Shown: positions 1,513-42,864 of the stretch, piece by piece | Numbering within the stretch: position 1 is the first letter of the stretch | How the letters are laid out: every line of letters starts with the position of its first letter | NCBI GenBank assembly: GCA_026225275.1 | Contig: JAMFSL010000280.1 | Coordinates: 1-45,183, forward strand | DNA from: Puia dinghuensis | Lineage (GTDB): Bacteria; Bacteroidota; Bacteroidia; Chitinophagales; Chitinophagaceae | Reading direction: 5' to 3' | Length of the DNA stretch: 45,183 bases | The notes under the pieces: generated by a model | What the model was told of the DNA's origin: nothing | Seen by the model: the letters and a program-made list of their open reading frames with translations, nothing else | The model's database searches: none | Position numbers and translations under genes: made by a program

Positions 1513-4500
1513 TTAAAAAGTCACTTTCAGCCCGGCCTGAACGGTCCGCGGCTGCGGCACGGTCGCCCAATCGTAGCCCGCCGTATTCTGATTGTTGCTT
1601 TGAGAACTCACTTCCGGATCCAGCCCCAGGTAATGGGTAAAGGTCAGCAGGTTGGTCGCCGACACATAGACTCTCGCCGAACCGAGATGCAACCGCCTTA
1701 CAGCATCGGAAGGGATGGTATAGCCTAACGATACGGACTTCAACCTGATGAAACTGCCATTCTCCAGGTATCGCGTGCTCTCACTGGCCACATTGCCGCC
1801 ATAATTATTCGCCGCCCCGTCGTTCTGCGCCGGATTGGCGCTGTAAGTGGTCATCCGCGGAATATCGGTCTTGTCGCCGACCTTCTGCCAGCGATCGAGC
1901 TGCCTGGGTACAAACCCGATGTTCTTCTGCGTTCCTCCATGGATCATGAAGAAATCATTCATATTCATGATCTTGTTTCCTTGCTGGAAATAGAAGAGGA
2001 AGCCGAGATCGAAAGCCCCCAGGCTGAGATTGTTGTTCAGACCGCCCACAAACCTTGGATTCGCATTCCCGACGATCTGCCGGTCGGCAGAAGTGATCTG
2101 TCCGTCCTTGTTCACATCCTGGTAGACGGCATTGCCGGTCTGCGGATCCACAGACAACTGTTTATACAGGTAGAAGGAATTGACGGCATAACCCTGACGC
2201 AGGATCGAAATATCCCTGCCGGATGCACCCTGCAGAATGTCACTGGCCAGTTTGACAACCTTATTCCTGTTCGCGGAGATATTGAAATCGGTCGTCCACC
2301 GGACCTCGCGCGTTTTAATATTCACGGACTGCAAAGACAGCTCGACACCTTTGTTGGTGACGGCGCCATAATTTTGAAGATAAGTGGTGAAGCCGGACCG
2401 TGAAGGCACCGGCACGTTCAGCAGCAGGTCATAAGTATACTTGTCGTAGTAATCCGCCACGACGGTCAGCCTGTTCTTCAGCACAGCGAATTCCACCCCC
2501 ACATCGGTCTGCCGCGTCGTCTCCCAGGTCAGGTTGGGATTGGCGAGTTGATAGGGAGCGATGCCGGCCAGATTGTCGTAGTTGATCCCCGTACCTGTCC
2601 AAAGACCCTGGGCCGCATAGGGCCCTATACCGTTCTGATTGCCGGAAAGCCCCAGGCTGGCCCGCAACTTCAGCGCATCGAAGAAATGCAGGTCACGGAT
2701 AAATTCCTCCTGACCCGCCTGCCAGGTAATGCCCCCGGAAGGGAAATACCCCCATCGCCGGCTGGCCCCGAATTTGGAAGATCCATCCGCCCGGATACTG
2801 CCATCGATAGTATACTTATTGTCATAAGTATAGCTGGCCTTGCCAAAGTATGATACCAGGTCGGACGTAGATGAAGTAGAAGAGCCCGTCGTGGTGGCAG
2901 CGGCTGAAATAGCGGTGAGGCTGTTGGCAGCAAAGCCGGTGCCGGTAGCGCTGGTTTCCTGGGCCAATACTGAATTGAACGTATTTCCTATCAATGCATT
3001 GATGCTGTGCTGACGGTTACTGCCGAAAGATTTGATGTAGGTCAGCACCTGCTCGTTAAGGAAGACGGTATTCTTGGTCTCATAGGAATTCGCCAGCCCA
3101 TTGCTCGCTATCCCTGCGCTGATCTCAGTACTCGCATAATCATTCTCGTATTCATCGTTATAGTCTATGCTGATACTGCTCCGTAGCTTCAATTCAGGAA
3201 GAATGGCGTATTCCGCATACACATTCCCAATCGTTCTCCAACCGGTGGCATTATTATGCAGGTATTTGATAAGGGCTTCAGCATTATCGAAGCTGCCATA
3301 CCTGGCATACGTGCCGTTAGCGTTATAGATGGGCTCATAAGAACGCGTGAACAAAGCGGAATTGATGACCCCCTGTGGGTTATTGTCATTGCTGCTCGGA
3401 TTGCGCCACGTCCGCGTAATATTGATGCTCTCACCTATTTTCAGCTGATGAGTGAGAAAATAGTCGCTGTTGAATCGGGCCGTATACCGCTCGTAATCGG
3501 TAGGTCTGACGATGGACTGCTGCCGCAGGTATCCCAGACCGGCATAATAATCGCTCTTATCCGTTCCCCCCTGTGTGGACAGTTCGTAGTCGGAAGTCGA
3601 CGCCGTCCGGAATATGTCTTTGATGCGATTATAAGTCGGCAACGTATCGGCATCGGGAAAAGGCAGCACGACGGTTGCAGGGTTCTGCCCGTTGTCGATC
3701 GCTGTGTTGACGGCGGATTCATTGGTCAGTAACCCCGTCTCCGGCCCGTTGGTGACCTTGAACTGTTTGATGGCATTGGACCAGCCATGGTAGGTGTTGA
3801 AAGCGATGACGGGAGAGGTATTCAACCTGCCCCGCTTGGTCGTAACGATCACGACGCCGTTCGCACCGAGCGATCCATAAATGGCCGTGGCATTGGCATC
3901 CTTCAGGATCTGGATACTTTCGATATCCGAAGGATTGATATCGGCCAGCGGATTGGATTGCTCCTGGTTGCCCTCCCCCGTCTGTATCGGCTCGGCCGTG
4001 CTGACGAATACTCCGTCAATGACATATAAAGGTTGTACGGAAGCGTTGATAGAGTTGTTACCCCGGATGGTAAACGTGATCCCCCCACCAGGTACGCCGG
4101 AATTGGCGGTCACCTGCACCCCGGCGGTCTTTCCCTGCAGCAGTTGGTTGAAACCCGCTTCCGGGATGTCTTTAATCGCATCTCCGCTCACACTGGCGAT
4201 GGAACCGGCAATGAATCTCTTATTCTGAGTGCTGTAACCGGTGACGATAACGTCGTCCAGCTGACGGTTTCCCCGCACCAGCAGGACAGTCACCTTTTCC
4301 TGGCCGGCGATCTTCACCTCCTGTGTCTCGTAACCGGCATAACTGATAATCAACGCCTTCTCACCGGCCCTGAGCCGCACGCTGAAGGATCCGTCCGCAG
4401 CGGTACTCACACCGCGACGTGTCCCCTTGACAACTATACTGACGCCGGATAATCCCTGGCCTGCGTCTTCCGCCGCTATTTTTCCGGTTATAAGCCGATC

Positions 4501-4581
4501 CCCCGGCGGCTCCTGCGCACGGGCATTGAGATGGCCGAACAGAACCAATAAAAGGCCGGCCAACAGTGAAAGATTTTTCAT
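1513..4581 (-). CDS. SusC/RagA family TonB-linked outer-membrane transporter
   Basis: The 1022-residue product is a TonB-dependent SusC-type transporter that imports ligand delivered by the adjacent SusD. A signal peptide ends at NARAQ. A carboxypeptidase-regulatory-like domain spans roughly residues 30-105 (GQGLSGVSIVVKGT and YAGYETQEV). The plug follows, with DDVIVTGY and the SusC signature LKDANATAIYGS followed by GANGVVIVTTKRG. The rest is a 22-strand barrel ending in the terminal phenylalanine of GLKVTF. I count five methionines including the start and no cysteine in the whole protein, which is unusually low. A promoter with an operator-like element lies at 4688-4739. The family call is secure; the ligand is unknown. 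Confidence 0.96.
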   Translation of the reverse strand: MKNLSLLAGLLLVLFGHLNARAQEPPGDRLITGKIAAEDAGQGLSGVSIVVKGTRRGVSTAADGSFSVRLRAGEKALIISYAGYETQEVKIAGQEKVTVLLVRGNRQLDDVIVTGYSTQNKRFIAGSIASVSGDAIKDIPEAGFNQLLQGKTAGVQVTANSGVPGGGITFTIRGNNSINASVQPLYVIDGVFVSTAEPIQTGEGNQEQSNPLADINPSDIESIQILKDANATAIYGSLGANGVVIVTTKRGRLNTSPVIAFNTYHGWSNAIKQFKVTNGPETGLLTNESAVNTAIDNGQNPATVVLPFPDADTLPTYNRIKDIFRTASTSDYELSTQGGTDKSDYYAGLGYLRQQSIVRPTDYERYTARFNSDYFLTHQLKIGESINITRTWRNPSSNDNNPQGVINSALFTRSYEPIYNANGTYARYGSFDNAEALIKYLHNNATGWRTIGNVYAEYAILPELKLRSSISIDYNDEYENDYASTEISAGIASNGLANSYETKNTVFLNEQVLTYIKSFGSNRQHSINALIGNTFNSVLAQETSATGTGFAANSLTAISAAATTTGSSTSSTSDLVSYFGKASYTYDNKYTIDGSIRADGSSKFGASRRWGYFPSGGITWQAGQEEFIRDLHFFDALKLRASLGLSGNQNGIGPYAAQGLWTGTGINYDNLAGIAPYQLANPNLTWETTRQTDVGVEFAVLKNRLTVVADYYDKYTYDLLLNVPVPSRSGFTTYLQNYGAVTNKGVELSLQSVNIKTREVRWTTDFNISANRNKVVKLASDILQGASGRDISILRQGYAVNSFYLYKQLSVDPQTGNAVYQDVNKDGQITSADRQIVGNANPRFVGGLNNNLSLGAFDLGFLFYFQQGNKIMNMNDFFMIHGGTQKNIGFVPRQLDRWQKVGDKTDIPRMTTYSANPAQNDGAANNYGGNVASESTRYLENGSFIRLKSVSLGYTIPSDAVRRLHLGSARVYVSATNLLTFTHYLGLDPEVSSQSNNQNTAGYDWATVPQPRTVQAGLKVTF

Positions 4582-4595
4582 TGCTACTAAGTTTT

Positions 4596-4664
4596 TTATG
4601 AGTAAAAGAGAATGGTGGTCTGTGGATGAATGGCAGATTTGGCGGATGTCCGGGCGGTGCTCAT
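4596..4664 (-). CDS. Possible 22-codon leader ORF upstream of susC
   Basis: Between the predicted transcription start and the susC start, the minus strand holds an ATG (4664) with 22 sense codons, beginning MSTARTSAKSAIHPQTT and ending LFYS before TAA. It has no cysteine, unlike the leader before the second susC operon. It may be a chance ORF in a 5' untranslated region. Its position matches the other leader, so it is recorded, but nothing proves that it is translated. Confidence 0.2.
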   Translation of the reverse strand: MSTARTSAKSAIHPQTTILFYS

Positions 4665-4687
4665 AACAGTTTGCGTTAGGTTTTTAT

Positions 4688-4706
4688 TAGTCCACTAATT
4701 TGGTAG
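4688..4706 (-). promoter_or_regulatory. Operator-like element shared with the second susC operon
   Basis: In gene orientation the sequence is CTACCAAATTAGTGGACTA. It starts one base after the -7 box of the susC promoter and so covers the expected transcription start. The element at 41831-41849 matches it at 16 of 19 positions and has the same placement. The joint consensus is CTACYRAATTAGTRGACTA, with an imperfect inverted-repeat core CTACY-RAATT-AGTRG. Such placement is what a repressor that blocks transcription initiation would use. The binding protein is not identified. Confidence 0.65.
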
Positions 4707-4707
4707 A

Positions 4708-4739
4708 CAAATGTAAACTTAAAAGAAGCATCGCCCAAA
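4708..4739 (-). promoter_or_regulatory. Bacteroidota-type promoter of susC (first pair)
   Basis: On the minus strand a -33 box TTTG (4739-4736), a 20-nt spacer and a perfect -7 box TACATTTG (4715-4708) match the Bacteroidota housekeeping promoter pattern TTTG/TAnnTTTG. Transcription should start inside the adjacent operator-like element. Confidence 0.75.
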
Positions 4740-4767
4740 AAAAACGAAAAAAATTCCTATTTTACAG

Positions 4768-4784
4768 TACCTTCGTAGACTATT
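4768..4784 (+). promoter_or_regulatory. Probable -7 box and half-operator before the ATP-grasp gene
   Basis: TACCTTCG (4768-4775) resembles the TAnnTTTG -7 box. It runs directly into TAGACTATT, which matches the outer half of the element found after the -7 boxes of both susC promoters. No convincing -33 TTTG is visible. The match is short, so support comes mainly from its position and from the divergent arrangement with a full site. Confidence 0.4.
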
Positions 4785-4800
4785 AAAAATCGCATCGCAT

Positions 4801-5793
4801 ATGTCACCTATCGCTATTTATCACGAACATCCCGACTGGTTCAAACCTCTTTTTGAAGAATTGAACAACAGGGATATTCCCTATACCAGGCTGAATCCTG
4901 CCGCCCACCAGTTCGCTATCGAAGCATCCGCCCCAGATTTCTCGCTGTTCTTTAACCGCATGAGCCCGTCCGCTTATCTGCGGGATGGCATCCAGGGCAT
5001 CTTCTATACGCTCAATTATCTGAAACATCTCGAATATCATAACATCCCGGTCCTCAATGGCTACAAGGCCTTTACCTTCGAAACGTCGAAGGCCCTGCAA
5101 CTCATGTTGATGCAGTCGCTCGGCTTCAAATACCCGAAGGCCCATGTCGTCAATCATCCGTCGAAACTCGTCGAAGCCGCGCAAGGACTGAGATTCCCCG
5201 TCGTCGTAAAAGCCAATATCGGAGGCAGCGGCGCAGGTATCACGAAATACCAGACGATCGAAGATCTCAAAAACGCAGTGGCTGAAGGTAACATGGGAGT
5301 CCCATTAGACTTCGGTGTCGATCATACAGCACTCGTGCAGGAATTCATTCCCGCCCGCGGCGGCTACATCACCCGCGTCGAAACACTGGGCGGTAAATTC
5401 CTCTACGGCATCCGCGTCTATCTCACCGGCGATACCTTCAACCTCTGCCCCGCAGATATTTGCCAGACGAACAGCGGCGTCGAACTGGTCCGCAATGCAT
5501 GCGCCATCGAAGCCCCGAAGAACGGACTCAAGGTCGAAGGTTATACCCCTCCAGCCAACGTCATCAAAGCCATCGAAACGATCGTTCAGCAGTCGGGCAT
5601 CGACGTCGGCGGCATCGAATACATCATCGACGACCGCGATGGCGAACTACTCTATTATGACGTCAACGCCCTGTCCAACTTCGTCGCGGACGCCGTCAAC
5701 GTCATCGGGTTCAACCCTCATCACCGGCTGGTGGACTACCTGCAGAAACGTGCAGGCATAAAGACTGGAGAAGCCCTTTTAACACACGCTTAA
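4801..5793 (+). CDS. ATP-grasp (RimK-like) ligase family protein
   Basis: The 330-residue protein has an ATP-grasp fold, a family that activates carboxylates with ATP and joins them to amines or thiols. An N-terminal domain spans about residues 1-95. The ATP lysine and glycine-rich loop follow (VVVKANIGGSGAGITKY, lysine near residue 137). The C-terminal metal-binding strand carries DVNALSNF near residues 293-300. Length and motifs fit RimK/glutathione-synthetase-like members. It is 14 bp upstream of an SfnG/SsuD-like monooxygenase and surely cotranscribed with it. It shares an intergenic region with a divergent susC. A ligase acting on a sulfur-compound breakdown product, or on a peptide or thiol cofactor, is possible; the substrate is not deducible. 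Confidence 0.85.
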   Translation: MSPIAIYHEHPDWFKPLFEELNNRDIPYTRLNPAAHQFAIEASAPDFSLFFNRMSPSAYLRDGIQGIFYTLNYLKHLEYHNIPVLNGYKAFTFETSKALQLMLMQSLGFKYPKAHVVNHPSKLVEAAQGLRFPVVVKANIGGSGAGITKYQTIEDLKNAVAEGNMGVPLDFGVDHTALVQEFIPARGGYITRVETLGGKFLYGIRVYLTGDTFNLCPADICQTNSGVELVRNACAIEAPKNGLKVEGYTPPANVIKAIETIVQQSGIDVGGIEYIIDDRDGELLYYDVNALSNFVADAVNVIGFNPHHRLVDYLQKRAGIKTGEALLTHA

Positions 5794-5807
5794 AAACTAA
5801 ACTACCT

Positions 5808-6839
5808 ATGCGGTACGGATACTGGATGCCCGTCTTTGGCGGCTGGCTGCGCAACGTCGACGACGAAAACATGGAAGCCTCCTGGGACTACGTAAAGAAA
5901 CTGGCTATCCGTAGCGAAGAGCTCGGCTACGACCTCAGCCTCATCGCTGAACTCAATCTCAATGACATCAAGGGCGAACACGCACCATCTCTCGACGCCT
6001 GGTCCACAGCCGCCGCACTGGCAGCCGTCACCCATAAACAGGAGTTGATGATCGCCGTACGGCCCACCTTCCATAACCCGGCACTCCTGGCCAAACAAGC
6101 CGCCAATATCGACCATATCAGCAAAGGCAGACTATCCCTTAACGTCGTCTCCTCCTGGTGGCGCGACGAGGCCACCAAATACGGCGTCGGCTTCGAACAG
6201 CATGACGACCGCTACGCCCGCACGGCCGAATGGCTCACCGTCCTCAACGGGGTATGGAACGAAGACGGATTCTCCTTCGACGGAAAATACTATCACGTCG
6301 CCAACAATACCCTCCAACCAAAGCCCGTTTCACGCCCCAGACCAGCCCTCTACGCCGGCGGCGAATCGGAAACGGCCAAAGATCTTATCTCGACAACCTG
6401 CGATGGCTACGTCATGCACGGCGATACCCCCGAGACGATCGGCACCCGCATCAGAGATATGAAAGAAAGAAGGGAAAAGAAAGGACTACCACCCATGCAA
6501 TACGGTGTAGCTGCCTATAGCATTATCCGCAATACCGACGCCGAAGTAAAAAAGGAACTGGACCGCATCACCAACGTCCAACCCGGCAGCGCCGGCTATA
6601 ACAATTACCAGCAATGGCTGGCCGGCACCCAACTGGAACAAAAAGTATCCCTGGAAGACTATTCGGTTTCTAACCGCGGCCTTCGCACCGGCCTGACGGG
6701 CACCCCCGGACAGGTTGCAGACAGGATCGGCGCCTTCGAAAAAGCAGGCGTAGACTTCTTCCTCCTGCAATGCAGCCCCCAAATCGAAGAAATGGAACGT
6801 TTCGCAGAAACAATCATCCGCACAGAACAATATGCCTGA
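5808..6839 (+). CDS. LLM-class flavin-dependent monooxygenase, SfnG/SsuD-like
   Basis: The 343-residue protein belongs to the bacterial luciferase-like superfamily. The N-terminal RYGYWMPVFGGWLRNVDD, the segment IDHISKGRLSLNVVSSWWRDE, EHDDRYARTAEWL-like spacing, the GGESETAKDL segment and the C-terminal GTPGQVADRI recall FMNH2-dependent alkanesulfonate (SsuD) and dimethylsulfone (SfnG) monooxygenases, which release sulfite or sulfinate from organosulfur compounds. No dedicated flavin reductase is seen nearby, so reduced flavin must come from elsewhere. It lies 14 bp after the ATP-grasp gene. The superfamily is secure; the sulfonate/sulfone substrate is inferred from similarity and context. 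Other LLM enzymes act on other C-S or C-H substrates. Confidence 0.85.
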   Translation: MRYGYWMPVFGGWLRNVDDENMEASWDYVKKLAIRSEELGYDLSLIAELNLNDIKGEHAPSLDAWSTAAALAAVTHKQELMIAVRPTFHNPALLAKQAANIDHISKGRLSLNVVSSWWRDEATKYGVGFEQHDDRYARTAEWLTVLNGVWNEDGFSFDGKYYHVANNTLQPKPVSRPRPALYAGGESETAKDLISTTCDGYVMHGDTPETIGTRIRDMKERREKKGLPPMQYGVAAYSIIRNTDAEVKKELDRITNVQPGSAGYNNYQQWLAGTQLEQKVSLEDYSVSNRGLRTGLTGTPGQVADRIGAFEKAGVDFFLLQCSPQIEEMERFAETIIRTEQYA

Positions 6840-32522: not shown

Positions 32523-33968
32523 TCACATCCCGAACACATCCTTTAACGCCCGCCTCGCCGCATGATACCCGCACATCCCATGCACCCCCCCGCCCGGCGG
32601 TGTCGAGGATGAACAAATGTATATCCCGTTCTCGGAAGTACGGTAAGGTGACGACCTCAGCGCAGGACGCGTAAACAATTGCCGGATATCGATGATCCCG
32701 CCGTTAATGTCCCCCCCGATATTATTGGCGTTGTAGGCCTCCAGCTGCGCGGTGTCAAACACATGCCGCGCCAGGATCCTCTCCCGGAAGCCGGGCGCAA
32801 AACGTTCCACCTGCTTCTCTATCGTCTCTGTCATATCGCGCACCGACCCATTCGGTACATGGCAGTAAGCCCAGGCCGTATGCTTTCCCTGCGGAGCGCG
32901 CGACAAATCGAAAACACTCGGTTGCGCGAGCAGTACAAAAGGCCGCTCGGGATACCCCCCGGCAGCGGTCTCAGCTTCCGCAGCAGTGATCTCCTCCAGC
33001 GTATTACCAATGTGGATGGTGCTCGCCTGGCGACAACCCGCCGCAGTGAAAGGAATACGCTCCGCCAACGCCCAGTCGATCTTGAAGACCCCCATTCCAT
33101 AACGATATCGCTCTAATTGCCATTTGTACAGTGAAGACCAGCGATGCCCGCCCAATCGCAGCAATTGCCTGGGCGTCATATCCAGCAACACGCAGCGCGA
33201 AGAAGGTAACTGTGAAAAATTTTTGACCTCGACACCCGTCTCGATGGCGCCTCCCAGTGAGATAAAATAGGAAGCCAGCGCATCGGCTATCGCCGCCGAT
33301 CCGCTCCGGGGCACCGGCCAGCCCTTCACATGACCCGTTGTCATGAGGACGAGAGCGATGGCCGAAGTAGCCAAATTGGTCAGCGGCTGTATCGAATGAG
33401 CAGCCATCCCGGCCAGTAATCCCCTCGCCTCCCGGGTTTGGAACCGCCGGGCCAGGTGGGTCGCCGCCGAAAGCGCCGGCCAGCCGAAACGGGTAAGCGA
33501 AAAGACATCCTTCGGCCAGCTCAATGGCCCCAGCAACTCCGGCGCCAACACCGGCCAGTCCCTGACGAAAGGTTCTAACAACTTCCGGTAAGCATCGGCA
33601 TCCTTACCCAATCCCCGGGCCGTATCCGCGACGGATCCGGATAAGATGGTCGCAGTACCGTCATCGAAGGGATGGGCCGCCGCCACCGGAGGATAAATCC
33701 ATTCCAACCCGTGCTCATGCAGCGGCAGGGTCGTAAAGAAAGGCGACCCCGCGGCCAGCGGATGAACGGCCGAACAAATGTCATGCGTGAACCCGGGCAA
33801 AGTCAGCTCGGCGCTGCGCATTCCGCCACCAATGGTACTTTTCGCTTCCAGCATCAGCACGCGCAGCCCCTTCTTTTGCAGGGTGATCGCAGCAGCCAGC
33901 CCGTTGGGACCACTGCCTACGACAACTGCATCGAAATCGGTGGCGCCCGTCGCTCTTTTACTCATCAT
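32523..33968 (-). CDS. FAD-dependent oxidoreductase, phytoene-desaturase-like
   Basis: The 481-residue protein has an N-terminal dinucleotide-binding motif (DAVVVGSGPNGLAAAITLQKKGLRVLMLEA), the GGGMRS loop, and a C-terminal flavin segment (NGIYICSSSTPPGGGVHGMCGYHAAR). These fit the CrtI/phytoene-desaturase and NAD(P)-FAD amine-oxidase-like group. It is the last gene of the operon leader-susC-susD-doxX-doxX, 16 bp after the second doxX. Its six or so cysteines and eleven methionines contrast with the sulfur-poor upstream proteins. Substrate unknown; oxidation of an imported compound or a lipid is possible. Confidence 0.9.
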   Translation of the reverse strand: MMSKRATGATDFDAVVVGSGPNGLAAAITLQKKGLRVLMLEAKSTIGGGMRSAELTLPGFTHDICSAVHPLAAGSPFFTTLPLHEHGLEWIYPPVAAAHPFDDGTATILSGSVADTARGLGKDADAYRKLLEPFVRDWPVLAPELLGPLSWPKDVFSLTRFGWPALSAATHLARRFQTREARGLLAGMAAHSIQPLTNLATSAIALVLMTTGHVKGWPVPRSGSAAIADALASYFISLGGAIETGVEVKNFSQLPSSRCVLLDMTPRQLLRLGGHRWSSLYKWQLERYRYGMGVFKIDWALAERIPFTAAGCRQASTIHIGNTLEEITAAEAETAAGGYPERPFVLLAQPSVFDLSRAPQGKHTAWAYCHVPNGSVRDMTETIEKQVERFAPGFRERILARHVFDTAQLEAYNANNIGGDINGGIIDIRQLFTRPALRSSPYRTSENGIYICSSSTPPGGGVHGMCGYHAARRALKDVFGM

Positions 33969-33984: not shown

Positions 33985-35655
33985 TTAGTATTTCCCTGCC
34001 TGAAGACTACTTTCCGTCAACGCAAAATTCCGGTCGATCCTGTCCAGCACGATATAGATACTATCATGCTTTTCATTAACACCACTCAGGATAACCCGAT
34101 TCCCGTTGTCAAGGGCATCGTATTGCAACACCATCCTGTTCCTTCTCTCAAATTTGGCCGCGGCATATTCCCTGACCCTGCGTGTCGACTTTCCCCGCGG
34201 ATCGATCTGGTCCACCTCATTACCGATATGGGCCAGTGCCGCCGCCGGTATCCAGTTCCTGCCTCTGCCTTCTTTACCCCCCTTCGCTGTCTTCTCTACA
34301 CCCGAAGAAAAAGTCGAGGCCGGTCCCTGCGCAGTGTCTCCACCCGGAACAGCCGCTTTTGCCACTCCATCGCCGCCACCGCCTTGTCTCCTACCCCTAC
34401 GCCGTCCGCCAGCCGTGGAGTCAGCACCCGCCCTGTTACGCCGCTCGGGAGCCTTGTATTTATCTTCGAGGTATAATACCTTATCTACCGTATCGGCATA
34501 ATAGTGGAACACCCGCCGCCCTCCGGCAATACCCGTCAGCTCGAAAGTTCTGTTGACGTCCTGCTGCGGATCACCGCCGCCGTTAGAGAGGTCCAGGGGC
34601 GTCGGCCTGTTCTGTGTAAAGCTCAGCGACGACCAATTCTCGAACTCCACCTCATGCCATCCCACCGAATCCAGCGGCGAATAAGGAATGATCTTATTAT
34701 TGACCCTGAATTCCGTCACCGCATAGTTGCCTCTCAACGTCCTTACTCCCGCTACCGCCGGCTGCTTATATGGATCGTACAAGAAATTGACCAACTGGAG
34801 ATAAAACAATACTCCAAGGAACAGGAAGATAGTCAGGCTCTTCAGACCAGCACGCGTCACCTTCAGCCACCGGGGGAAAGGCGGATAAAAGGGCGTCGAT
34901 ACGGTAAGCCGTTCCCTGATCAGGAGGTTGTATAACTTGGGAATATCATCAACCAAAAGGAACGCAGACAACAGCACAAAATAACTCGCATATACATGGA
35001 CGCCGCCATCATAGGCCAGGTTAACATAGGTTATATCCCCCAGTGCACCGATCAGCAGGATCGCGCCAATCGTAGTCGTCCGCCGGAAGAACAGCAGCGT
35101 ACCAGCCAGGCATTCCACCACGCCGGCAAAGACCTGATACCAGGGCACAATGCCGACAGACAACCAAAATATCTTCTGAGTCGTCATATCGCCGAAGTTG
35201 GTGTTCAGCAAACCCAGTCCGGGATACGGCATCTGTACCGGCAGGAGCTTGGTAAACCCAAAACCGATGATGCCGATGCCCGCCCGGTACCGCACCACCA
35301 CCCGCAGCCAGTAGTATAAAGTCTTGTATTCGCTTCTTTCCGTCTTGCGCGCGAGGACAACAAAAGTCCAGATCAGCCCGCCGATGATCGCCGCGATGAG
35401 GGTAATCACCCAGTTGGCCCAGCCCAGCAGCGTACTGCCAAATAGCGAGTTGCCGAATACATTGATGCCCGATCCGAAACGCGCGATATCGTACAGATCC
35501 CGGTAATTCAAATGGGTCCAGTCGATATGGACCACTGTATCATACCATTCCCCGCTATTAGGAATGGAGATGGCAATAAAAAAGATAAAGGCGATCCGGA
35601 AGGCGATCTTTTGCCCTTTGGACCAGTTTGTGGAAGTAATGGCAGTGGTTGACAT
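33985..35655 (-). CDS. DoxX-family membrane protein with C-terminal domain and linker insertion
   Basis: The 556-residue protein has a DoxX-like membrane core of several helices (residues 15-295: RYRAGIGIIGFGFTKLLPVQMPYPG, GVVECLAGTLLFFRR, VNLAYDGGVHVYASY). A soluble C-terminal domain (about 300-556) follows. Residues about 402-503 form a low-complexity Arg/Gly/Ala insertion missing from its neighbour paralog. DoxX/DoxD proteins form the membrane part of thiosulfate:quinone oxidoreductase in archaea, and others serve respiratory or redox roles. Only one cysteine and four methionines are present. It is the fourth gene of the susC operon. Confidence 0.85.
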   Translation of the reverse strand: MSTTAITSTNWSKGQKIAFRIAFIFFIAISIPNSGEWYDTVVHIDWTHLNYRDLYDIARFGSGINVFGNSLFGSTLLGWANWVITLIAAIIGGLIWTFVVLARKTERSEYKTLYYWLRVVVRYRAGIGIIGFGFTKLLPVQMPYPGLGLLNTNFGDMTTQKIFWLSVGIVPWYQVFAGVVECLAGTLLFFRRTTTIGAILLIGALGDITYVNLAYDGGVHVYASYFVLLSAFLLVDDIPKLYNLLIRERLTVSTPFYPPFPRWLKVTRAGLKSLTIFLFLGVLFYLQLVNFLYDPYKQPAVAGVRTLRGNYAVTEFRVNNKIIPYSPLDSVGWHEVEFENWSSLSFTQNRPTPLDLSNGGGDPQQDVNRTFELTGIAGGRRVFHYYADTVDKVLYLEDKYKAPERRNRAGADSTAGGRRRGRRQGGGGDGVAKAAVPGGDTAQGPASTFSSGVEKTAKGGKEGRGRNWIPAAALAHIGNEVDQIDPRGKSTRRVREYAAAKFERRNRMVLQYDALDNGNRVILSGVNEKHDSIYIVLDRIDRNFALTESSLQAGKY

Positions 35656-35682: not shown

Positions 35683-37029
35683 TTACAGGCTTATCCCGCC
35701 TTCTCTCCCCCTCTTCCGGGACTCTTCCAGCAAATACTTTTTATCGATCTTGTCGAGCACAGCATACACGCTGTCCTTGCCGGCAACTCCCGAAAGGACG
35801 ATTCTTGAAGTGTCGGGCCGCTCATAATGCAGCACCCACTTTTCATCACTGTAATGCGGATTCTTATTCTGCAGCGTCAGTGAATGATTCGCAGAGTCGA
35901 TGGTATAACTGTAGTAGTGCCGACCGGCGGATCCCTCTAATTCATATGTTTTGGCATCTTCCCCCGCTTCGGGTTGCTCTATATTCGTGGAATCCAGCAC
36001 GACCGGCCGGTTGGACCGAATGCTGAGCGTAGCCCATTTCTCGAACACTACATCCTGCCAGCGCGTGGAATCCGTCCGGGAATAAGCCAGGGTATCCTTT
36101 CCTACCACAAACTGCGTTACATTATATAGCCCCGCAGCTTCCGGCAGGCCGCGCGTGGTCGGGAACTGATAGCCCCCGCCAAACCGTGTTTTGAACCCAT
36201 ACAGGATAACAAAGAAGAAGATGAAGACGGTCTTCAATGCCAGCCGCGCATAGCGTTGTCCCTTTTCCTTCCAGACGGGATGATACTGGTTGGGCTCGGT
36301 CGGCTTCTGCCATACCAGCAGGTTCAGCAGCCTTTCTACATCATAACTCAGCACGAACAGGGAAAGGGTGATCAGGTAAAGGCTATAGACATCATCCCCC
36401 CCGCCATACGCCAGGTTACTCATAAAGACATTCCCCAAAAATATGGCGATGATAAAGGCCCCGACGGAAGCCGAACGGCGATAAAATAACAGCAGTCCGC
36501 CGATAATCTCGACCAGGCCCAGAAAGGACTCATAGTTGGGGACAACGCCCAGACTCAGCGAGAATAACTTCCACCGGGTGAAATCTCCGTAATTGGTATT
36601 GAGGTTGCTGAGGGACGGGTAAGGCGCCTGCAACGGAAACAGCTTGATAAATCCATAGGCGATGATGCCAATGGCCAGCCGGTAACGAACGATGACCCGC
36701 ACCCAGTAATACAGCGTATCATCCGAAGCCGTCCGCCGACCTCGCGCTTCGACAGCCCCCCAGATCACCGCCCCGGCCGCTGCGATGATCAGCAAAATAA
36801 TCCAGTCTGTAAATCGCTGAGGACCCGACGACCAGGTCGGACTGTAGTGCGCCAGACTAAAGATGGCCCCATAATGCAGGTGAGCCCAGTCGGTAGAAAA
36901 TACCTGGCGGTAATATTTCCAGTCCAGCGGGACCGCCTGGAGGATGAAATAGATCAGGAAGATCCGCAAAAGGAACTTCTGAGGCCCCTTCAGGGCGTTG
37001 GCATTGTCAATGGTGGTTGAATTAGACAT
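35683..37029 (-). CDS. DoxX-family membrane protein, paralog of the next gene
   Basis: The frame extends to 37209, but the extension has no DoxX character, and the ATG at 37029 (MSNSTTIDNAN) gives 448 residues and a 47-bp gap after susD. Helices include RYRLAIGIIAYGFIKLFPLQAPYP, FLGLVEIIGGLLLFYRR and MSNLAYGGGDDVYSLYLITLS, aligned with the paralog at 33985. The C-terminal soluble domain has FEKWATLSIRSNRPVVLDS and VLSGVAGKDSVYAVLDKIDKKYLLEES. I count two methionines and no cysteine, very low for a membrane protein. The DoxX pair probably forms a membrane oxidoreductase unit; its substrate is unknown. Confidence 0.85.
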   Translation of the reverse strand: MSNSTTIDNANALKGPQKFLLRIFLIYFILQAVPLDWKYYRQVFSTDWAHLHYGAIFSLAHYSPTWSSGPQRFTDWIILLIIAAAGAVIWGAVEARGRRTASDDTLYYWVRVIVRYRLAIGIIAYGFIKLFPLQAPYPSLSNLNTNYGDFTRWKLFSLSLGVVPNYESFLGLVEIIGGLLLFYRRSASVGAFIIAIFLGNVFMSNLAYGGGDDVYSLYLITLSLFVLSYDVERLLNLLVWQKPTEPNQYHPVWKEKGQRYARLALKTVFIFFFVILYGFKTRFGGGYQFPTTRGLPEAAGLYNVTQFVVGKDTLAYSRTDSTRWQDVVFEKWATLSIRSNRPVVLDSTNIEQPEAGEDAKTYELEGSAGRHYYSYTIDSANHSLTLQNKNPHYSDEKWVLHYERPDTSRIVLSGVAGKDSVYAVLDKIDKKYLLEESRKRGREGGISL

Positions 37030-37076: not shown

Positions 37077-38450
37077 CTAATACCCGGGGTTCTGTGTCAG
37101 TGCTCCGTTGGACAAAGTGATTTCTTGCGTCGGTATAGGGAATAACAGATTGTCCGGATTGGTAACACCCACTGTCGCGGCCTGTCCCCACCGCACCAGG
37201 TCGAACCACCGGTGAGGCTCCAGCGCAAATTCCAGCCTGTTCTCATTATAGATAGCCTGTATGATATCGGGCTGCGTAGTGGCAGTGCTGTTGGGCTGCG
37301 CCGCCCTCGTCCGGATCGCATTCAGGTCGCTCAATGCGCCGGACAACTCGCCCTGCTCCGCCCTCGCCTCCGCCCGGATCAGGTAGACTTCCGCAATGCG
37401 GATGATATAGGAAGGATCGGTAGCCGGACTACGATAAAACAAATTTCCATACCACAATCCCGTGGACGTTTGCGCCACGAATGCGCCTCGCCCTGAGTCG
37501 GTCAGCAAAGTGGCGATCGTGGCGCTCGGTGCCCATTGCCGGGTACCGCCAGTGGCCGGTGGCTGCCAGTTGCCCCTGCTGCCGTTCGTATAGGTGGCAT
37601 TATAAGACAGCTCTAATACCGATTCTTTTGTCCCTACGGCGCTGGCAGGCTGAAACCAACTGCTGAAAGGCGTCAGCAGCTGATAAAACGTATTGTCCGC
37701 CAGTACCTCCGACGCATAGGCTTCCGCATTCGCCCAGTCCTGCTGGTACAGGTAATACCTGGCTTTCAGCGCCCATGCCACTTCCTTGCTCGCCCTAATC
37801 GGGTTTTGCACAGTATCTTTCAGCAGGAGCGAATCCGCTTTATTCAGATCGCTCAGCACCTGCGCGTAGGTCTGCGCCAGCGTGCTGCGGGGAGTACTGG
37901 TCTTTTGCGTCGCGCTCGTCGTCGGTACCAGGGTGATCGGTACCCCTCCCCAGCAACGTGCCAGGTCGAAATAGCAAAGCGCCCGGAGAAAATAACCCTC
38001 TCCCGTCAGCTGATTTTGCTGACCTGCGGTAAAAGTCGGGTCGACGACCAACGGCACCTTGGCAATGACCTGGTTGGCTCCATTGATGGTTTTGTAGATA
38101 CCCGACCACACACTTTCGAGGTTGTCGTTGTCTGCCGCGACAGTGTGAGAGATGAATTGCTGGATCACCGATTGAGAACCCGTCCAAACGATATCGTCTC
38201 CGCCCAGGTAGCCGAAGGTCTCATACAGGCCACCGTAATAATTCTCGGCCATAGTACGGTAGACGCCTCTTACAGCCGTCTCAGAGGAAGTAGCATCGAC
38301 GATCGTGACCGCATCGGATACATCGGTAACAGGTAATACAGTCAGAAATTTTTTGCAGCCGCTCACTACTGGTAATGCCAGCAGCGGAAGATACCGGAGC
38401 ACCCTGATGAGGCTCCGCAATCGAATGGTATATGGATGAAATCTTTGCAT
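37077..38450 (-). CDS. SusD/RagB family nutrient-binding outer-membrane lipoprotein
   Basis: The 457-residue lipoprotein has lipobox VSGC followed by KKF, then the SusD segments GEGYFLRALCYFDLARCWGG, RIAEVYLIRAEARAEQG and LEPHRWFDLVRWGQ. It pairs with the SusC encoded just upstream, 24 bp away. It resembles the SusD at 124-1488 at almost every landmark, so the two pairs are recent paralogs or share a substrate class. Apart from the lipid-attachment cysteine only about two cysteines are present. The ligand is unknown. Confidence 0.94.
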   Translation of the reverse strand: MQRFHPYTIRLRSLIRVLRYLPLLALPVVSGCKKFLTVLPVTDVSDAVTIVDATSSETAVRGVYRTMAENYYGGLYETFGYLGGDDIVWTGSQSVIQQFISHTVAADNDNLESVWSGIYKTINGANQVIAKVPLVVDPTFTAGQQNQLTGEGYFLRALCYFDLARCWGGVPITLVPTTSATQKTSTPRSTLAQTYAQVLSDLNKADSLLLKDTVQNPIRASKEVAWALKARYYLYQQDWANAEAYASEVLADNTFYQLLTPFSSWFQPASAVGTKESVLELSYNATYTNGSRGNWQPPATGGTRQWAPSATIATLLTDSGRGAFVAQTSTGLWYGNLFYRSPATDPSYIIRIAEVYLIRAEARAEQGELSGALSDLNAIRTRAAQPNSTATTQPDIIQAIYNENRLEFALEPHRWFDLVRWGQAATVGVTNPDNLLFPIPTQEITLSNGALTQNPGY

Positions 38451-38474: not shown

Positions 38475-41400
38475 TTAAAAGGTGACGTTTAATCCGAATT
38501 GAACCGATCTTGGCTGCGGCGGAGTACCCAGGTCTAATCCCTGTATGGTCTGTATGGAAGTAACATTAGCCTCCGGATCGGGACCCTGATACTTGGTGTA
38601 CAACCATACATTGCTGCCGACAACATACACCCGCACCAGTTTCACGTGCAATGGGGCGGTAGTCTTGGCGGGAAGAGTATAACCAACACTCAGTTCCTTC
38701 AACCGGATGTACCCGCCGTTTTCGAGGAAACGGCTGTTCTGCTGCAGCACATAATTATTCCCGTAAGCCGTCTCTCTTGGGGTTTCGGTAATTTGTCCCG
38801 GCGTAGTCCAGCGCCTAAGCTGGCTGGACTGTAAGACACGGTTGGCATCCCGGGTACCGCCGCCTTCCCCGAAATAACGCTGAAGGTCCAGCACATCATT
38901 TCCATATTGATAGGTAAAGAGCGCCGATAAGTCAAAACCGGCAAAAGATACAGTATTGTTCAGGCCACCGAAGAACTTAGGTGCTGCATTACCCATTACT
39001 TGCCTCGCAGTGGCAGGAACCGTGGCGTTGAGCTGCTGGGCATTTTTGGTGTTGCCTGTGCCGTTGACCTGTCCCTGAAAAACCGAGTTACCGGTCTGGG
39101 GATCGACATACAATTGCTTGTACAACCAGAACGAATACAGCGGATGACCCTGCTGGATCACCAGCCAGTCGCGGCTATACTGGTAAATAGGCGTCGACAG
39201 CGAAACCACCTTGCTCACGTTACCCGAGATGGAGAAATCGGTCGTCCAGCTGAATCCTTTCCCGCGCAAATTGACGGAATGGATGCCTACTTCATAACCC
39301 TTGTTGCTGATCTCGCCCGCATTACTATTGTAGGTGGAGAAACCGCTGATGGCCGGGATGGGCAGCTGTAACAGCTCATGCGTCGTCGTTTTGTCATACA
39401 CATTGGCATTGATCGTGATCCGGTCCGCGAACAGTCCGACGTCGACCCCGATATTTGCCTGCGCCGTCCGTTCCCATTTCAAATTGGGATTGGCCAGCTG
39501 CAAAGGCGCCGTTCCGGGCTGGTAGGTGGAGCCATTATCCGGATAGGCATAACCGCCGGACCAGAGACCCTGTGCGGCATAATCGCTGATGCCGTTCTGG
39601 TTACCCGTTATCCCATAGCTACCTCTCAGCTTCAGATCACTGAGCCATTGCACTGTCTTGAGAAAGTTCTCATCTTTGATCCTCCAGGCGGCACCCACAG
39701 ACGGGAAATAACCCCATTTATTATTCGTCCCGAATTTAGACGAGCCATCGCCCCTTGCACTCACCTCAAGGAAATACCGGTTGTCCCAGTTATAGTCCAG
39801 CCTGCCGAAATAGGAGGCTAAGTTTCCCTTATTCCAGGTTTGTGACGAAGTGGTAATGGCTGCCGAAGCAATAGAAGTGTAGGAATTGTTCGGGAACCCT
39901 GTACCCGTCGCAGTCGTGCTCTGGATCAGATTGCTTTGCAGGGTATTGCCGACGACAAATCCGAAATGGCTTTTACTGCCGAAAGTCGTCTTATAAGTCA
40001 ACGTCTGCTCATTGACCCAGCTGCTGTTTTGCGTCAATATAGTCGAAGCCAGCCCATTGGTCGGCGCCGCGCCATCCTGGGTAAAATTATTCCAGTATTC
40101 GAACTCATTGTAGTTGTTCCAATCCAGGCTCCAGCTCGACCTGAATTTCAGCCCCGGAAGGATCTGCGCATCGGCATAGACGTTCCCGATATACCGGAGG
40201 CTGATGGTATGCATGTCATAATATTTGATCAGGATGGACAGGTTGTCGAATCCGGCATAGTCCAGCGGTGTACCTGCCGCATTGGTAGGAGGCAGATAGG
40301 TAGCCGTATTGATGGCCGATTGCAGCAACCCGCCGTCAGGGCCATCTCCCGCCCTTCCCTGCTTACGGTACGACCGGGAAAAGCTATTGCTGGTCCCTAC
40401 GGACAACCAGTCGGTAACTTTTTGGTCGAGATTGAAGCGGAAGCTGCTCCGCTCGAACCACAGCGGTCGGATAATGGCATCCTGGTGACTCTCACCCACC
40501 CCAAAGTAGTATTGTGTCTCTTTATTCCCCCCGCTCAGCGACAGGTTATAATTTTGCAGGCCGGCGGTCCTGAACAGCTCATGCTCTCTGTCATAGGTAT
40601 GCTGGAGGTTCGGCGTACCCCGATTCGTAGCCGCCGTCGGATTCCAGACATTACCCACGAAGGGAGGCGTCGCATACGTAGCCTCTCCCGATGTGTTGCC
40701 CAACGCAATGGCATCCGCCTCGGAATTGGTGTAGTACTCATTTTCCAGCGTGGCATGTTGCGGACCAGTCGTGAGTCCCCACAACCTTGACCCCTTGGCG
40801 ACGCCTGCGGATGCATCCACTACCAGTTTGGGTGCATTATTGAAGTTCCCGCGCTTGGTGGTGATAATGATAACCCCGTTGGCGCCCCGTGAACCATATA
40901 TGGCCGTAGCATCCGCATCCTTTAATACCTCCACGTTCTGGATGTCCGCCGGGTTGAGATCGGCCAGCGGCGACGTAGCCCGACCACCCGTATTCAGCGT
41001 CTGCAGAGTTTGATTGTTAACGAAAACGCCGTCGATAATATACAAGGGATTATTATCGGCATTAATGGAGGTTGTACCGCGTATCCGCACAAAAACCCCG
41101 TCACCGGGAACACCTGTATTGGAATTGATCTGCAGCCCGGGCGCCTTGCCCTGCAGCTGCGCGTCAAAGCTGGCCACCGGTTGGGCCGCCACCTCTCCCT
41201 GCTTGACGGTGGAAATGGAGCTTGTCAGGTCACGTCGGTTCTGAGTGCCATAACCAACCACCACTACATCGTTCAGTTGGCCTGATACCGCGGTCAGCGG
41301 GATATCGATATTACTATTGCGGTTTTCACTGATTTCCTTTCGCTGGTATCCGACATAGGTCACGATGATCTCCACCGGCAAATGCTGCCCGGTAAGAAAC

Positions 41401-41606
41401 CGGAATCTGCCTTGCTGGTCCGTGACCACTTCATGCGTCGTACCCTTCAGATGGACGGTGGCGCCCGGTAAACCCGTACCCGACTTATCGTCATATACCC
41501 TGCCCGTGATCGTCGTGTTGTTATTGTTCTGCGCCCTGGCCGACAGCACGATGAAGGCAGGAAGGAGAACGGTAAATAAAATTCTGCTAAGATCAATTTT
41601 GATCAT
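38475..41606 (-). CDS. SusC/RagA family TonB-linked outer-membrane transporter
   Basis: The 1043-residue transporter has a signal peptide ending SARAQ and a carboxypeptidase-like domain (about 30-110: GLPGATVHLKGTTHEVVTD). The plug has NDVVVVGYGTQNRRDLTSS, then LKDADATAIYGSRGANGVIIITTKRG, and the barrel ends in FGLNVTF. It is the first gene of a minus-strand operon with susD, two doxX genes and an FAD oxidoreductase. I count three methionines including the start and no cysteine in 1043 residues. A leader ORF with four consecutive cysteine codons and a promoter-operator lie upstream. The family is secure, and an organosulfur substrate is inferred from these features. Confidence 0.96.
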   Translation of the reverse strand: MIKIDLSRILFTVLLPAFIVLSARAQNNNNTTITGRVYDDKSGTGLPGATVHLKGTTHEVVTDQQGRFRFLTGQHLPVEIIVTYVGYQRKEISENRNSNIDIPLTAVSGQLNDVVVVGYGTQNRRDLTSSISTVKQGEVAAQPVASFDAQLQGKAPGLQINSNTGVPGDGVFVRIRGTTSINADNNPLYIIDGVFVNNQTLQTLNTGGRATSPLADLNPADIQNVEVLKDADATAIYGSRGANGVIIITTKRGNFNNAPKLVVDASAGVAKGSRLWGLTTGPQHATLENEYYTNSEADAIALGNTSGEATYATPPFVGNVWNPTAATNRGTPNLQHTYDREHELFRTAGLQNYNLSLSGGNKETQYYFGVGESHQDAIIRPLWFERSSFRFNLDQKVTDWLSVGTSNSFSRSYRKQGRAGDGPDGGLLQSAINTATYLPPTNAAGTPLDYAGFDNLSILIKYYDMHTISLRYIGNVYADAQILPGLKFRSSWSLDWNNYNEFEYWNNFTQDGAAPTNGLASTILTQNSSWVNEQTLTYKTTFGSKSHFGFVVGNTLQSNLIQSTTATGTGFPNNSYTSIASAAITTSSQTWNKGNLASYFGRLDYNWDNRYFLEVSARGDGSSKFGTNNKWGYFPSVGAAWRIKDENFLKTVQWLSDLKLRGSYGITGNQNGISDYAAQGLWSGGYAYPDNGSTYQPGTAPLQLANPNLKWERTAQANIGVDVGLFADRITINANVYDKTTTHELLQLPIPAISGFSTYNSNAGEISNKGYEVGIHSVNLRGKGFSWTTDFSISGNVSKVVSLSTPIYQYSRDWLVIQQGHPLYSFWLYKQLYVDPQTGNSVFQGQVNGTGNTKNAQQLNATVPATARQVMGNAAPKFFGGLNNTVSFAGFDLSALFTYQYGNDVLDLQRYFGEGGGTRDANRVLQSSQLRRWTTPGQITETPRETAYGNNYVLQQNSRFLENGGYIRLKELSVGYTLPAKTTAPLHVKLVRVYVVGSNVWLYTKYQGPDPEANVTSIQTIQGLDLGTPPQPRSVQFGLNVTF

Positions 41607-41670
41607 ACAATTTGTTTTGGAAAAACCTTATGGGTGATAAATGTGAAAACCAGATGGGATGAATGCGGAA

Positions 41671-41769
41671 TCAACAACAACAACAGCCGCAGCCGGAGAA
41701 ACAGATATAGCGAACCACCAGTGCTTGCTGTCCATGCAGGATGACAGCGGTAGAGTCTAACGACTTCAT
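41671..41769 (-). CDS. Cysteine-rich leader peptide of the susC operon
   Basis: An ATG at 41769 on the minus strand opens 32 codons that begin MKSLDSTAVILHGQQALVVR and end YICFSGCGCCCC before TGA. Six of the last ten residues are cysteine, and the last four codons are all TGT. The ORF lies between the predicted promoter and susC, 64 bases before the susC start. Ribosomes short of charged cysteine tRNA would stall at the poly-cysteine run, so it looks like a cysteine attenuation leader similar in principle to the poly-cysteine leaders described in actinobacteria. It is not a candidate for a stable functional protein. Translation and mechanism are inferred. Confidence 0.7.
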   Translation of the reverse strand: MKSLDSTAVILHGQQALVVRYICFSGCGCCCC

Positions 41770-41830
41770 GAGTGTTGTTTTACGATTTTGTTATATTAAT
41801 GGCAGCTGGTGGTAACATCGCCATTAACAA

Positions 41831-41849
41831 TAGTCTACTAATTCAGTAG
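41831..41849 (-). promoter_or_regulatory. Operator-like element of the second susC operon
   Basis: In gene orientation the sequence is CTACTGAATTAGTAGACTA. It contains a 5-bp inverted repeat CTACT/AGTAG around GAATT, followed by ACTA-type flank shared with the first site. It starts two bases after the -7-like box and so covers the transcription start. It matches the element at 4688-4706 at 16 of 19 positions. Confidence 0.65.
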
Positions 41850-41851
41850 GG

Positions 41852-41882
41852 TAAAAGTAGTGTTAAAGTTTATACTCACAAA
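41852..41882 (-). promoter_or_regulatory. Bacteroidota-type promoter of the second susC operon
   Basis: On the minus strand a -33 TTTG (41882-41879), a 19-nt spacer and a -7-like box TACTTTTA (41859-41852) lie upstream of the operator-like element. The -7 box departs from TAnnTTTG only in its last base. The layout equals that of the first susC promoter within one base. Confidence 0.65.
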
Positions 41883-41958: not shown

Positions 41959-42864
41959 TTAGTCCCGCGTTACCATCCTATACCGCGTGGGAGACATCCC
42001 CATTACTTTAGTGAACCGCTTGGAAAAATAGTAAGGGTCGTCAAATCCCATGCTGAGGGCAATGTCTTTGATGGACTTGTCGGAAATGCCCAGATGCTGG
42101 CTGGCCTTTTGCATTTTCATCTGGATAAAATAGTCGATAGGCGCATAGCCGGTCCGCTGCTTGAACAGACTGGAGAATCGGGAAGGGGAATAATTATACC
42201 GATGGCTGAGATCGTTGAGCGTTATAGTTTCATTAATGTGCTCTTGCATAAAAAGGATGGCGCTGTCGATACAATCGATCTTGGCCGTAGGCGAAGCCGC
42301 GAAATGCCGATGGTTGTAGATGAACAGGGTGATAAAATGAGATAGGCACATATTGGCGAACAGGAGATTATCAATACTGTAGCCGAGTTCCAGCGTCTTG
42401 TATATCCGCGAGAAAAGGCCCGTTATCTCGTTGCTGCTGCGCACGGCATGCGGCTTGAAATGATTTTGAATCACAGGCAGGGCATTGAAATTGGGCAGTT
42501 GGGTTCCGCCGAAATGCAGCCAGTAAATCGTCCAGGGATCATCTTCCGAGCTACCATAGGCATGCTCGATCTGCTGCGGCAGAATAAAGCATTCGTTGGG
42601 TCCCACCTCATACTTCTTGTCCCCGATCTTGAACCAGCCATGACCATCTACGCAATAAAAAAGGAAGTTCTCGGGCAAGCCTTTTTTCCGGTAGGTGTAA
42701 TGACCGCTCGCCCGCGGATAGTAGCCCAGTCCACAAATGTACAGTTGCCGCAACAAAACATTGTTCTGAACGCGCGACTTCAGCACAGACTTGGGAATCT
42801 CGATACGCTGCCGGCCGATGCCGTGCCAGATATTCTTATGAGACCCTACTTTATTCTGTTCCAT
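41959..42864 (-). CDS. AraC-family transcriptional regulator
   Basis: The 301-residue protein has an N-terminal cupin-like sensor domain (about 60-125: HGWFKIGDKKYEVGPNECFILPQQIEHAYGS). A C-terminal double helix-turn-helix (about 200-298) has LNDLSHRYNYSPSRFSSLFKQRTGYAPIDYFIQMKMQKASQHL and IKDIALSMGFDDPYYFSKRFTKVMGMSPTRYR. Such regulators commonly sense sugars. It is divergent from the DUF5703 hydrolase gene with only 31 bases between them, so it probably controls that gene. It is probably unrelated to the susC operon on its other side, although that cannot be excluded. Confidence 0.92.
   Translation of the reverse strand: MEQNKVGSHKNIWHGIGRQRIEIPKSVLKSRVQNNVLLRQLYICGLGYYPRASGHYTYRKKGLPENFLFYCVDGHGWFKIGDKKYEVGPNECFILPQQIEHAYGSSEDDPWTIYWLHFGGTQLPNFNALPVIQNHFKPHAVRSSNEITGLFSRIYKTLELGYSIDNLLFANMCLSHFITLFIYNHRHFAASPTAKIDCIDSAILFMQEHINETITLNDLSHRYNYSPSRFSSLFKQRTGYAPIDYFIQMKMQKASQHLGISDKSIKDIALSMGFDDPYYFSKRFTKVMGMSPTRYRMVTRD

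Follow-up and report, generated by a model that had tools for sequence, protein, structure and literature searches.

A probable cysteine-responsive leader peptide upstream of a SusCD operon in Puia dinghuensis

A short ORF ending in a cysteine run precedes susC

The window analysed here is the whole stretch of 45,183 nucleotides of Puia dinghuensis DNA. Its minus strand carries susC (38475–41606), encoding a TonB-linked outer membrane transporter with Pfam Plug and TonB barrel domains that matches TIGR04056 with 774.7 bits (cut-off 368), and susD (37077–38450), encoding the surface lipoprotein partner (PF07980 and PF14322). Further downstream on the same strand are the genes of a putative membrane protein (35683–37029, recognized as such by eye), of a second protein resembling a membrane protein (33985–35655) and of an FAD-dependent oxidoreductase assigned by Pfam (32523–33968). 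The proteins encoded at 35683–37029 and 33985–35655 have no match in Pfam or NCBIfam, leaving the name doxX, previously attached to the first of them, unconfirmed. Homologs of both accompany susCD in 55 of 80 related loci, and homologs of the oxidoreductase are found in 36 of the 80; a role of the two proteins as an organosulfur transport or oxidation pair is possible.

Between susC and a gene coding for an AraC-type regulator (41959–42864) lies an upstream ORF (uORF) of 32 codons plus TGA on the minus strand (41671–41769, ATG at 41769), which translates to MKSLDSTAVILHGQQALVVRYICFSGCGCCCC*. Its last ten codons (41674–41703), the proposed regulatory codons, read CFSGCGCCCC, six of the ten being cysteine; the last four are TGT TGT TGT TGT (41674–41685), followed by TGA, and 64 nt separate the stop from the susC ATG (41606). 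The original prediction, which had described this ending and the position of a leader peptide ahead of susC, was thus accurate on both points. It had also held that six cysteines in ten residues is far beyond chance, and among 1878 stop codons on both strands of the window, each preceded by at least ten open codons, only that of the uORF has at least six cysteine codons in the last ten. CCCC directly before the stop occurs twice among the 1878, in the uORF and in a frame at the contig edge. The latter, ten codons at about 32–65 on the minus strand, just past the end of a susD, may belong to the next gene beyond the contig. Amino-acid leader peptides are recognized by a short ORF, ahead of the regulated gene, in which codons for a single amino acid follow one another, and this is what the uORF displays.

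The window holds a second susCD pair (susC 1513–4581, susD 124–1488), divergent from genes encoding an ATP-grasp protein and an SfnG-like LLM monooxygenase (4801–5793, 5808–6839). No cysteine-tailed uORF is found before this second pair.

Cysteine-tailed ORFs recur ahead of homologous susCD operons

The pattern GCGCCC was found at 47 places in 36 of 195 genomes of the family, and the 30 places read contained no other short-ORF leader before susC. When the 32-amino-acid peptide was searched in 248 genomes of the order, 66 gave matches at E-values up to 10, the best other than the window peptide itself being 0.0017, and none of the 30 loci read was convincing. Since the literal motif was not conserved among the loci read, the operon itself was used for comparison. 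A SusD search of the 195 family genomes yielded 34 places, every one of which was read, and of 586 loci that a SusD alignment picked out in named genomes the best 80 were kept. The resulting 114 leaders were reduced to 100 by removing five that were too short (L113, L126, L186, L227, L233) and nine identical duplicates among the remaining 109. An ORF was counted as a uORF if it started with ATG, encoded 8 to 80 amino acids, had at least three cysteines in the last six codons and lay within 500 nt.

Such an ORF is present in 37 of the 100 non-identical leaders, as compared with none of 60 leaders of other SusC genes (Fisher p = 2e-9), 2 of 100 reverse strands and 12 of 2000 dinucleotide shuffles. 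The 60 control leaders, 27 of them in this genome and 33 in two others of its genus, were picked by hand among the TIGR04056 places that scored best in these three genomes. When the rule was applied to other amino acids, none exceeded 9 of the 100 leaders, and after clustering at 80% identity 33 of 85 clusters had a uORF-bearing member. The search for cysteine-ended ORFs in homologous operons, put forward with the original prediction as a way to check it, therefore turned out in its favor.

Within the family, 18 of 32 readable leaders have a short ORF ending in a cysteine run at the position of the window ORF; the N-terminal parts are unrelated and the tails include HSCCCC, CCYSCCC, TCYCCTCTCC and ARMHCCC. 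Carriers are also encountered in Terrimonas, Cnuella, Mucilaginibacter, Pedobacter, Dyadobacter, Aquirufa, Pontibacter, Dysgonomonas, Tannerellaceae and a Balneolaceae bin. At the chosen threshold the ORF is missing from 63 of the 100 homologous leaders, the second susCD of the window among them, and in 13 of these 63 susC lies, by a rough rule, inside an operon. A stricter scan of 125 loci, requiring at least three cysteines in the last four codons and covering both strands, returned 36 ORFs, 31 of them before SusC genes and five before other genes, namely those of S10 peptidases (L222, L238), an M14 peptidase (L236), a PhyH protein (L167) and a glutamate-type dehydrogenase (L117).

Two features of individual loci are worth recording. 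Locus L240 has two tandem cysteine-tailed ORFs (3490–3586 and 3685–3808) ahead of one susC, and an Arg-Met stretch (RM, RMRM) often stands before the cysteine tail (L116, L118, L222, L236, L238, L239, L243, L244). Methionine may be sensed too, or the ATG may be the internal start of a minimal M-C-C-C ORF.

Genes of sulfur metabolism are found around these operons. Neighbors of the susCD family include sulfite oxidase, methionine-importer-like, cysteine synthase and similar genes. We scored five sulfur genes (SfnG-like monooxygenase, sulfite oxidase, cysteine synthase, Cys/Met PLP enzyme and MetN-like), and at least one of them is present in 45 of the 80 named-genome loci and in 17 of the 26 that carry a uORF, both being raw counts, uncorrected for background.

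Poly-cysteine ORFs before cysS in relatives

A scan for TGYTGYTGYTGYTRA in 79 family genomes, from which 30 loci and 20 regions were read, gave mostly out-of-frame matches inside genes and some intergenic short ORFs. The intergenic ORFs stand before further SusC-like genes, identified by eye (L367, L368, L375, L384), before genes without an assigned name (L371, L376) and, as an unplanned find, before a gene coding for cysteine--tRNA ligase (cysS) in L378 (TIGR00435, 406.9 bits, cut-off 340). We drew 50 cysS leaders of the family from 144 genomes with cysS, comprising the 30 best scoring (18 positive) and 20 chosen by hand (5 positive), one of which (G004) was chosen after a cysteine-stop site had been noticed there. 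In this sample, biased because the 30 best-scoring leaders are the nearest to the query genome, 23 of the 50 leaders have, 51–80 nt before cysS, a poly-cysteine ORF; examples are MIHSSIYCCCCCC and MFFLSHTCCCCCCC. Among these 23, L388 is without an in-frame ATG. The cysS leader of this genome and those of two genomes of the same genus have no poly-cysteine ORF. In a sample of cysS leaders across the phylum, in which several start codons are uncertain, one of 26 was positive outside the family (L455) and one of four inside. A poly-cysteine ORF ahead of the gene for the enzyme that makes Cys-tRNA is what a sensor of Cys-tRNA would predict. For cysS the tie between regulated gene and cysteine is clear; for susCD it is indirect, by way of the neighboring sulfur genes.

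Composition, folding and promoter-site figures for cysS rest on 18 of the 23 positives. Fourteen of these 18 have a -7-like element 12–15 nt before the uORF ATG, suggesting that the cysS uORFs are leaderless. A -7-like site also lies between uORF and cysS in 7 of the 18 leaders (0.9 expected), hence part of cysS transcription may bypass the uORF.

The leader RNA has little structure and a C-rich tract after the uORF

The classical form of leader-peptide control has a stalled ribosome that switches an RNA hairpin, which then either terminates transcription or hides the start of the downstream gene. This scheme has been described for a cysS uORF of Rhodobacterales with an intrinsic terminator, according to the available text of that source (PMC8632094). 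In some relatives of the window a strong hairpin with a T-rich tail stands before susC (L100, -22.8 kcal/mol; L103, -22.7 kcal/mol), and by a hand count 10 of the 37 uORF-bearing leaders beat all five of their own shuffles, about six being expected; in the region of the stop, the cysS leaders, too, have slightly more stable folds than shuffles (mean z -0.95, sem 0.31). Against it, the leader of the window (41590–41830), which the original prediction had proposed to fold, does so no better than shuffles (z -0.5) and has no terminator-like site, and an intrinsic terminator is not general among the 37 leaders. The predicted accessibility of the susC start is 0.59 in the free, stalled and released states (footprint at the first cysteine codon, the last cysteine codon and the stop), and in 12 leaders including that of the window a blocked footprint shifts this value by no more than 0.05. 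Neither a terminator/antiterminator nor an RBS-hiding switch was found in the window, and we regard such a switch as an unlikely explanation for its uORF. Pairing of the cysteine run with the sequence after the stop is likewise weak (z -0.35, sem 0.21, for susC; z -0.90, sem 0.22, for cysS).

Other RNA elements were noticed in some leaders. The last 150 nt before susC of L099, L100, L101, L103–L106, L109–L111, L125, L166 and L191, with or without a cysteine uORF, share a conserved hairpin of approximate form GCCGGAAC-TGTTGNCG-GTTCCGGC followed by AACAAGGC, and several of them have a second hairpin ending in GCCTTATTTTT right before the susC start. Before susC, Pedobacter-type leaders (L194, L208, L219 and L209, L212) have loops with AACGCCAATCAC in some and its reverse complement ATTGGCGTT in others. 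An Rfam search of eight loci, which did not cover all those with the GCCGGAAC hairpin, gave no family for this hairpin and a single chance match; the window leader gave one match far below threshold, on the other strand.

Rho loads on C-rich, G-poor RNA with little structure. Directly after the uORF stop the window has a tract of this composition, with 14 C and 3 G in 40 nt (41631–41670, minus strand), a candidate Rho-loading region. The 40 nt after the stop average 27% C and 14% G in the 37 susC leaders, vs 19.6% C and 17.8% G behind 256 further short ORFs in these leaders (Mann-Whitney p = 1.2e-7 for C over G, a statistic that ignores relatedness), and 28% C and 13% G after the 18 cysS uORFs. 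The RNA behind the uORF is thus C-rich, G-poor and little structured. The presence of this tract in both the susC and the cysS sets leads us to favor a Rho-type attenuation, to which we give perhaps an even chance. A ribosome waiting on the last codons would cover the start of the tract, which would explain why the cysteine codons stand at the very end of the ORF. For Rho of Bacteroides thetaiotaomicron, the available part of one report states that condensation raises termination activity (PMC13269538).

The cysteine-tailed reading frame is maintained as the peptide drifts

Nine pairs of relatives were compared. In five of them the uORFs align gap-free, and for four of the five the 150 nt that follow contain indels; L104 and L105, for example, are gap-free over 38 codons with eight gaps in the following 150 nt, while L239 and L244 are gap-free over 56 codons, of which 24 have changed nonsynonymously and 12 synonymously. 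The four other pairs, more distant, have gaps within the uORF. Frameshift-rich divergence between close relatives, which the original prediction had named as an observation that would speak against it, is absent from the five gap-free pairs. The uORFs vary in length from 8 to 56 amino acids and the peptide outside the cysteine tail is not conserved. A peptide that drifts while its cysteine tail stays behaves as a leader peptide would, unlike a protein with a function of its own.

This drift also bears on the idea that the function resides in the peptide, which might, for example, serve as a thiol or metal ligand or arrest the ribosome, its cysteine codons not being a tRNA sensor. Cysteine-rich peptides bind metals elsewhere, and several tails have an Arg-Met stretch in common (e.g. 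RMRM, RMHCCC). However, neither the rest of the sequence nor its length is conserved, 31 of the 36 strict cases stand ahead of SusC genes, and the ORFs before cysS fit tRNA sensing, which together make an active peptide quite improbable.

Alternatively, the UG-rich stretch could be a nucleic-acid element, an RNA-binding or DNA site that mimics cysteine codons. TGT predominates among the cysteine codons in the last ten codons of the 37 uORFs (108 TGT, 50 TGC), and the stretch is therefore often (TGT)n. Yet TGC makes up 50 of the 158, the interrupting codons are in frame, three stop codons are used (TGA 17, TAA 15, TAG 5) and close pairs show indels behind the ORF and none within it. On this codon and frame evidence we rejected a nucleotide-only element, which we hold to be highly improbable. 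Still less credible is a functionless cysteine-rich frame that arose by chance: the exact peptide had no convincing relative in the searches made, but the SusC-leader, reverse-strand and shuffle controls given above make this very unlikely.

A putative promoter and a palindromic box upstream of the uORF

Bacteroidota promoters have the consensus TTTG / TAnnTTTG. Upstream of the uORF, on the minus strand, we read a putative promoter of this type, consisting of TTTG (41879–41882), 19 nt and the -7-like element TACTTTTA (41852–41859), which departs from TAnnTTTG in its last base; a scan of the window for sigma-70-type promoters found none. This nearest promoter reading lies about 80 nt before the uORF ATG, by which the uORF of the window does not look leaderless. 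Its -7-like element fails the stricter pattern used for counting across leaders. By that pattern, 21 of the 37 susC leaders, the window not included, have a -7-like site in the 150 nt ahead of the uORF (6.3 expected), and none of the 37 has one between uORF and susC (5.2 expected). This arrangement would place the uORF within the susC transcript.

Adjacent to the putative promoter, and likewise upstream of the uORF, is the palindromic box CTACTGAATTAGTAGACTA (41831–41849, minus strand), whose best form is GTCTAC-N7-GTAGAC. It is a candidate operator of a sulfur regulator. A box-like site is present in 44 of the 100 homologous susCD leaders vs none of the 60 control SusC leaders, and in 17 of the 37 uORF-bearing ones, hence the linkage of box and uORF is partial. 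A strict search of the phylum for the box together with TTTG returned 3 of 296 genomes, and in one of the three (L384) a cysteine-tailed ORF stands ahead of a SusC-like gene. Elsewhere, cysteine genes are under the control of Rrf2 proteins such as CymR, which makes Rrf2 a candidate for the box and no more. This genome has one Rrf2 gene, on a contig where no box match was found, and another Rrf2 gene is in the L222 locus.

Proposed function of the uORF

Taken together, the recurrence of cysteine-tailed ORFs before related susCD operons and before cysS suggests that these ORFs probably let the cell read its cysteine supply during translation, and sequence comparison gives good support to the view that the uORF is a leader peptide responding to cysteine. 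We propose, with a probability of roughly three in four, that it serves a susCD operon for sulfur acquisition as its regulatory leader peptide, and we favor a Rho-type attenuation scheme for it. Transcription would start from the putative promoter, overlapped by the candidate operator of a sulfur regulator, and the uORF would be made first. When Cys-tRNA is plentiful, the ribosome would clear the cysteine run and leave at the stop, baring the C-rich RNA, on which Rho would end transcription ahead of susC. When cysteine is short, the ribosome would wait on the cysteine run at the ORF end and cover the start of the tract, and transcription would run on into susC, susD and the genes behind. Use of the promoter, translation of the uORF, its response to cysteine and the direction of that response, as well as the use of Rho, are what we infer in this scheme. 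The ORF itself, its conserved cysteine-tailed frame, the upstream box, the sulfur context, the cysS counterpart in relatives and the C-rich tract are direct observations. Of the earlier leader-peptide reading, the leader peptide is thus supported by comparison, and its classical hairpin form is not.

The proteins encoded by susC (TIGR04056) and susD (PF07980) belong to the SusCD/RagAB TonB-dependent importers, which are usually controlled by SusR or hybrid two-component systems, by sigma/anti-sigma pairs or by antisense RNA. We know of no cysteine leader among them. The original prediction had pointed to poly-cysteine leaders in actinobacteria and to the absence of a described SusC case. Of the former kind are the mycobacterial polycysteine leaderless short ORFs (Canestrari et al. 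2020), cysteine-responsive according to the available portions of PMC9031893, PMC9094748 and PMC13236596; as for the latter, searches of an open-licence library yielded no cysteine leader in Bacteroidota and none before SusCD. As far as these portions describe them, the mycobacterial ORFs contain contiguous cysteine codons, precede cysteine-biosynthesis genes and are translated in a cysteine-dependent manner; many cysS ORFs described here (14 of 18) also look leaderless. They differ from our case in phylum, in the target, which is here a SusCD importer, in an RBS-hiding structure that was not found here and in that the uORF of the window is probably not leaderless. In Rhodobacterales, the uORFC-8-2 motif ahead of cysS is, in the text available, a uORF with tandem cysteine codons, interpreted as ribosome-mediated attenuation; it has two cysteine codons, and its conserved RNA forms two stems and closes with an intrinsic terminator (PMC8632094), whereas the ORFs reported here have three to seven cysteines at their end, belong to another phylum and precede both susCD and cysS. 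Two stems of this type ending in an intrinsic terminator were not found in the window leader. In the phylum of the window, leader-peptide attenuation has been proposed for amino-acid biosynthesis operons of Flavobacterium psychrophilum, and the accessible text of that study describes no cysteine leader or SusC target (PMC9723704). The system proposed here works like a known kind; new are its phylum, its targets and the absence of an RNA switch of the cysS type. If our reading is correct, SusCD importers, usually discussed for glycans, would be wired to amino-acid supply via translation, the cysteine tail would be a sequence signature by which the sulfur substrates of many SusCD systems might be traced, and the phylum, whose Rho is unusual, would possess an attenuator with no visible RNA switch.

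A possible wider sulfur regulon

Tentatively, and with somewhat less than even confidence, we extend this reading to a poly-cysteine leader regulon of Bacteroidota that would comprise cysS, sulfur SusCD importers and some peptidase genes. Terminal cysteine codons would guard a C-rich Rho-loading tract, beneath the operator of a sulfur repressor, and import would be set by Cys-tRNA charging.

In the genome of the window, the box pattern at one mismatch has 23 matches, as many as the reversed control (23), so that single matches prove little. Besides that of the window uORF, seven matches stand close before a gene start; they are A+T-rich and mostly palindromic. According to Pfam and NCBIfam, these matches lie upstream of a susCD with an ABC importer containing a NIL domain and a permease (C27), of a cytochrome c and sulfite oxidase pair (C305), of a porin and a siroheme/TauE sulfite exporter protein (C354), of a permease with citrate, arsenite and sulfate matches (C175) and of one protein with no match in either database (C62). 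Another is that of the second susCD of the window (4688–4706, on C44, at one mismatch), where SfnG is the best score of the divergent LLM protein, below the SfnG cut-off. A match on C182, considered as an operator of cysteine synthase, was dropped, as it sits between two gene ends more than 2 kb away. The remaining match, on C186 (L158, G000:C186), stands directly upstream of a minus-strand operon (genes at about 1631–6361) with Pfam and NCBIfam matches to a redoxin, an SrpI-like type 2A encapsulin and a class V aminotransferase. This gene set, which we take to resemble encapsulated cysteine desulfurase systems, apparently belongs to the same sulfur regulon as the box of the window.
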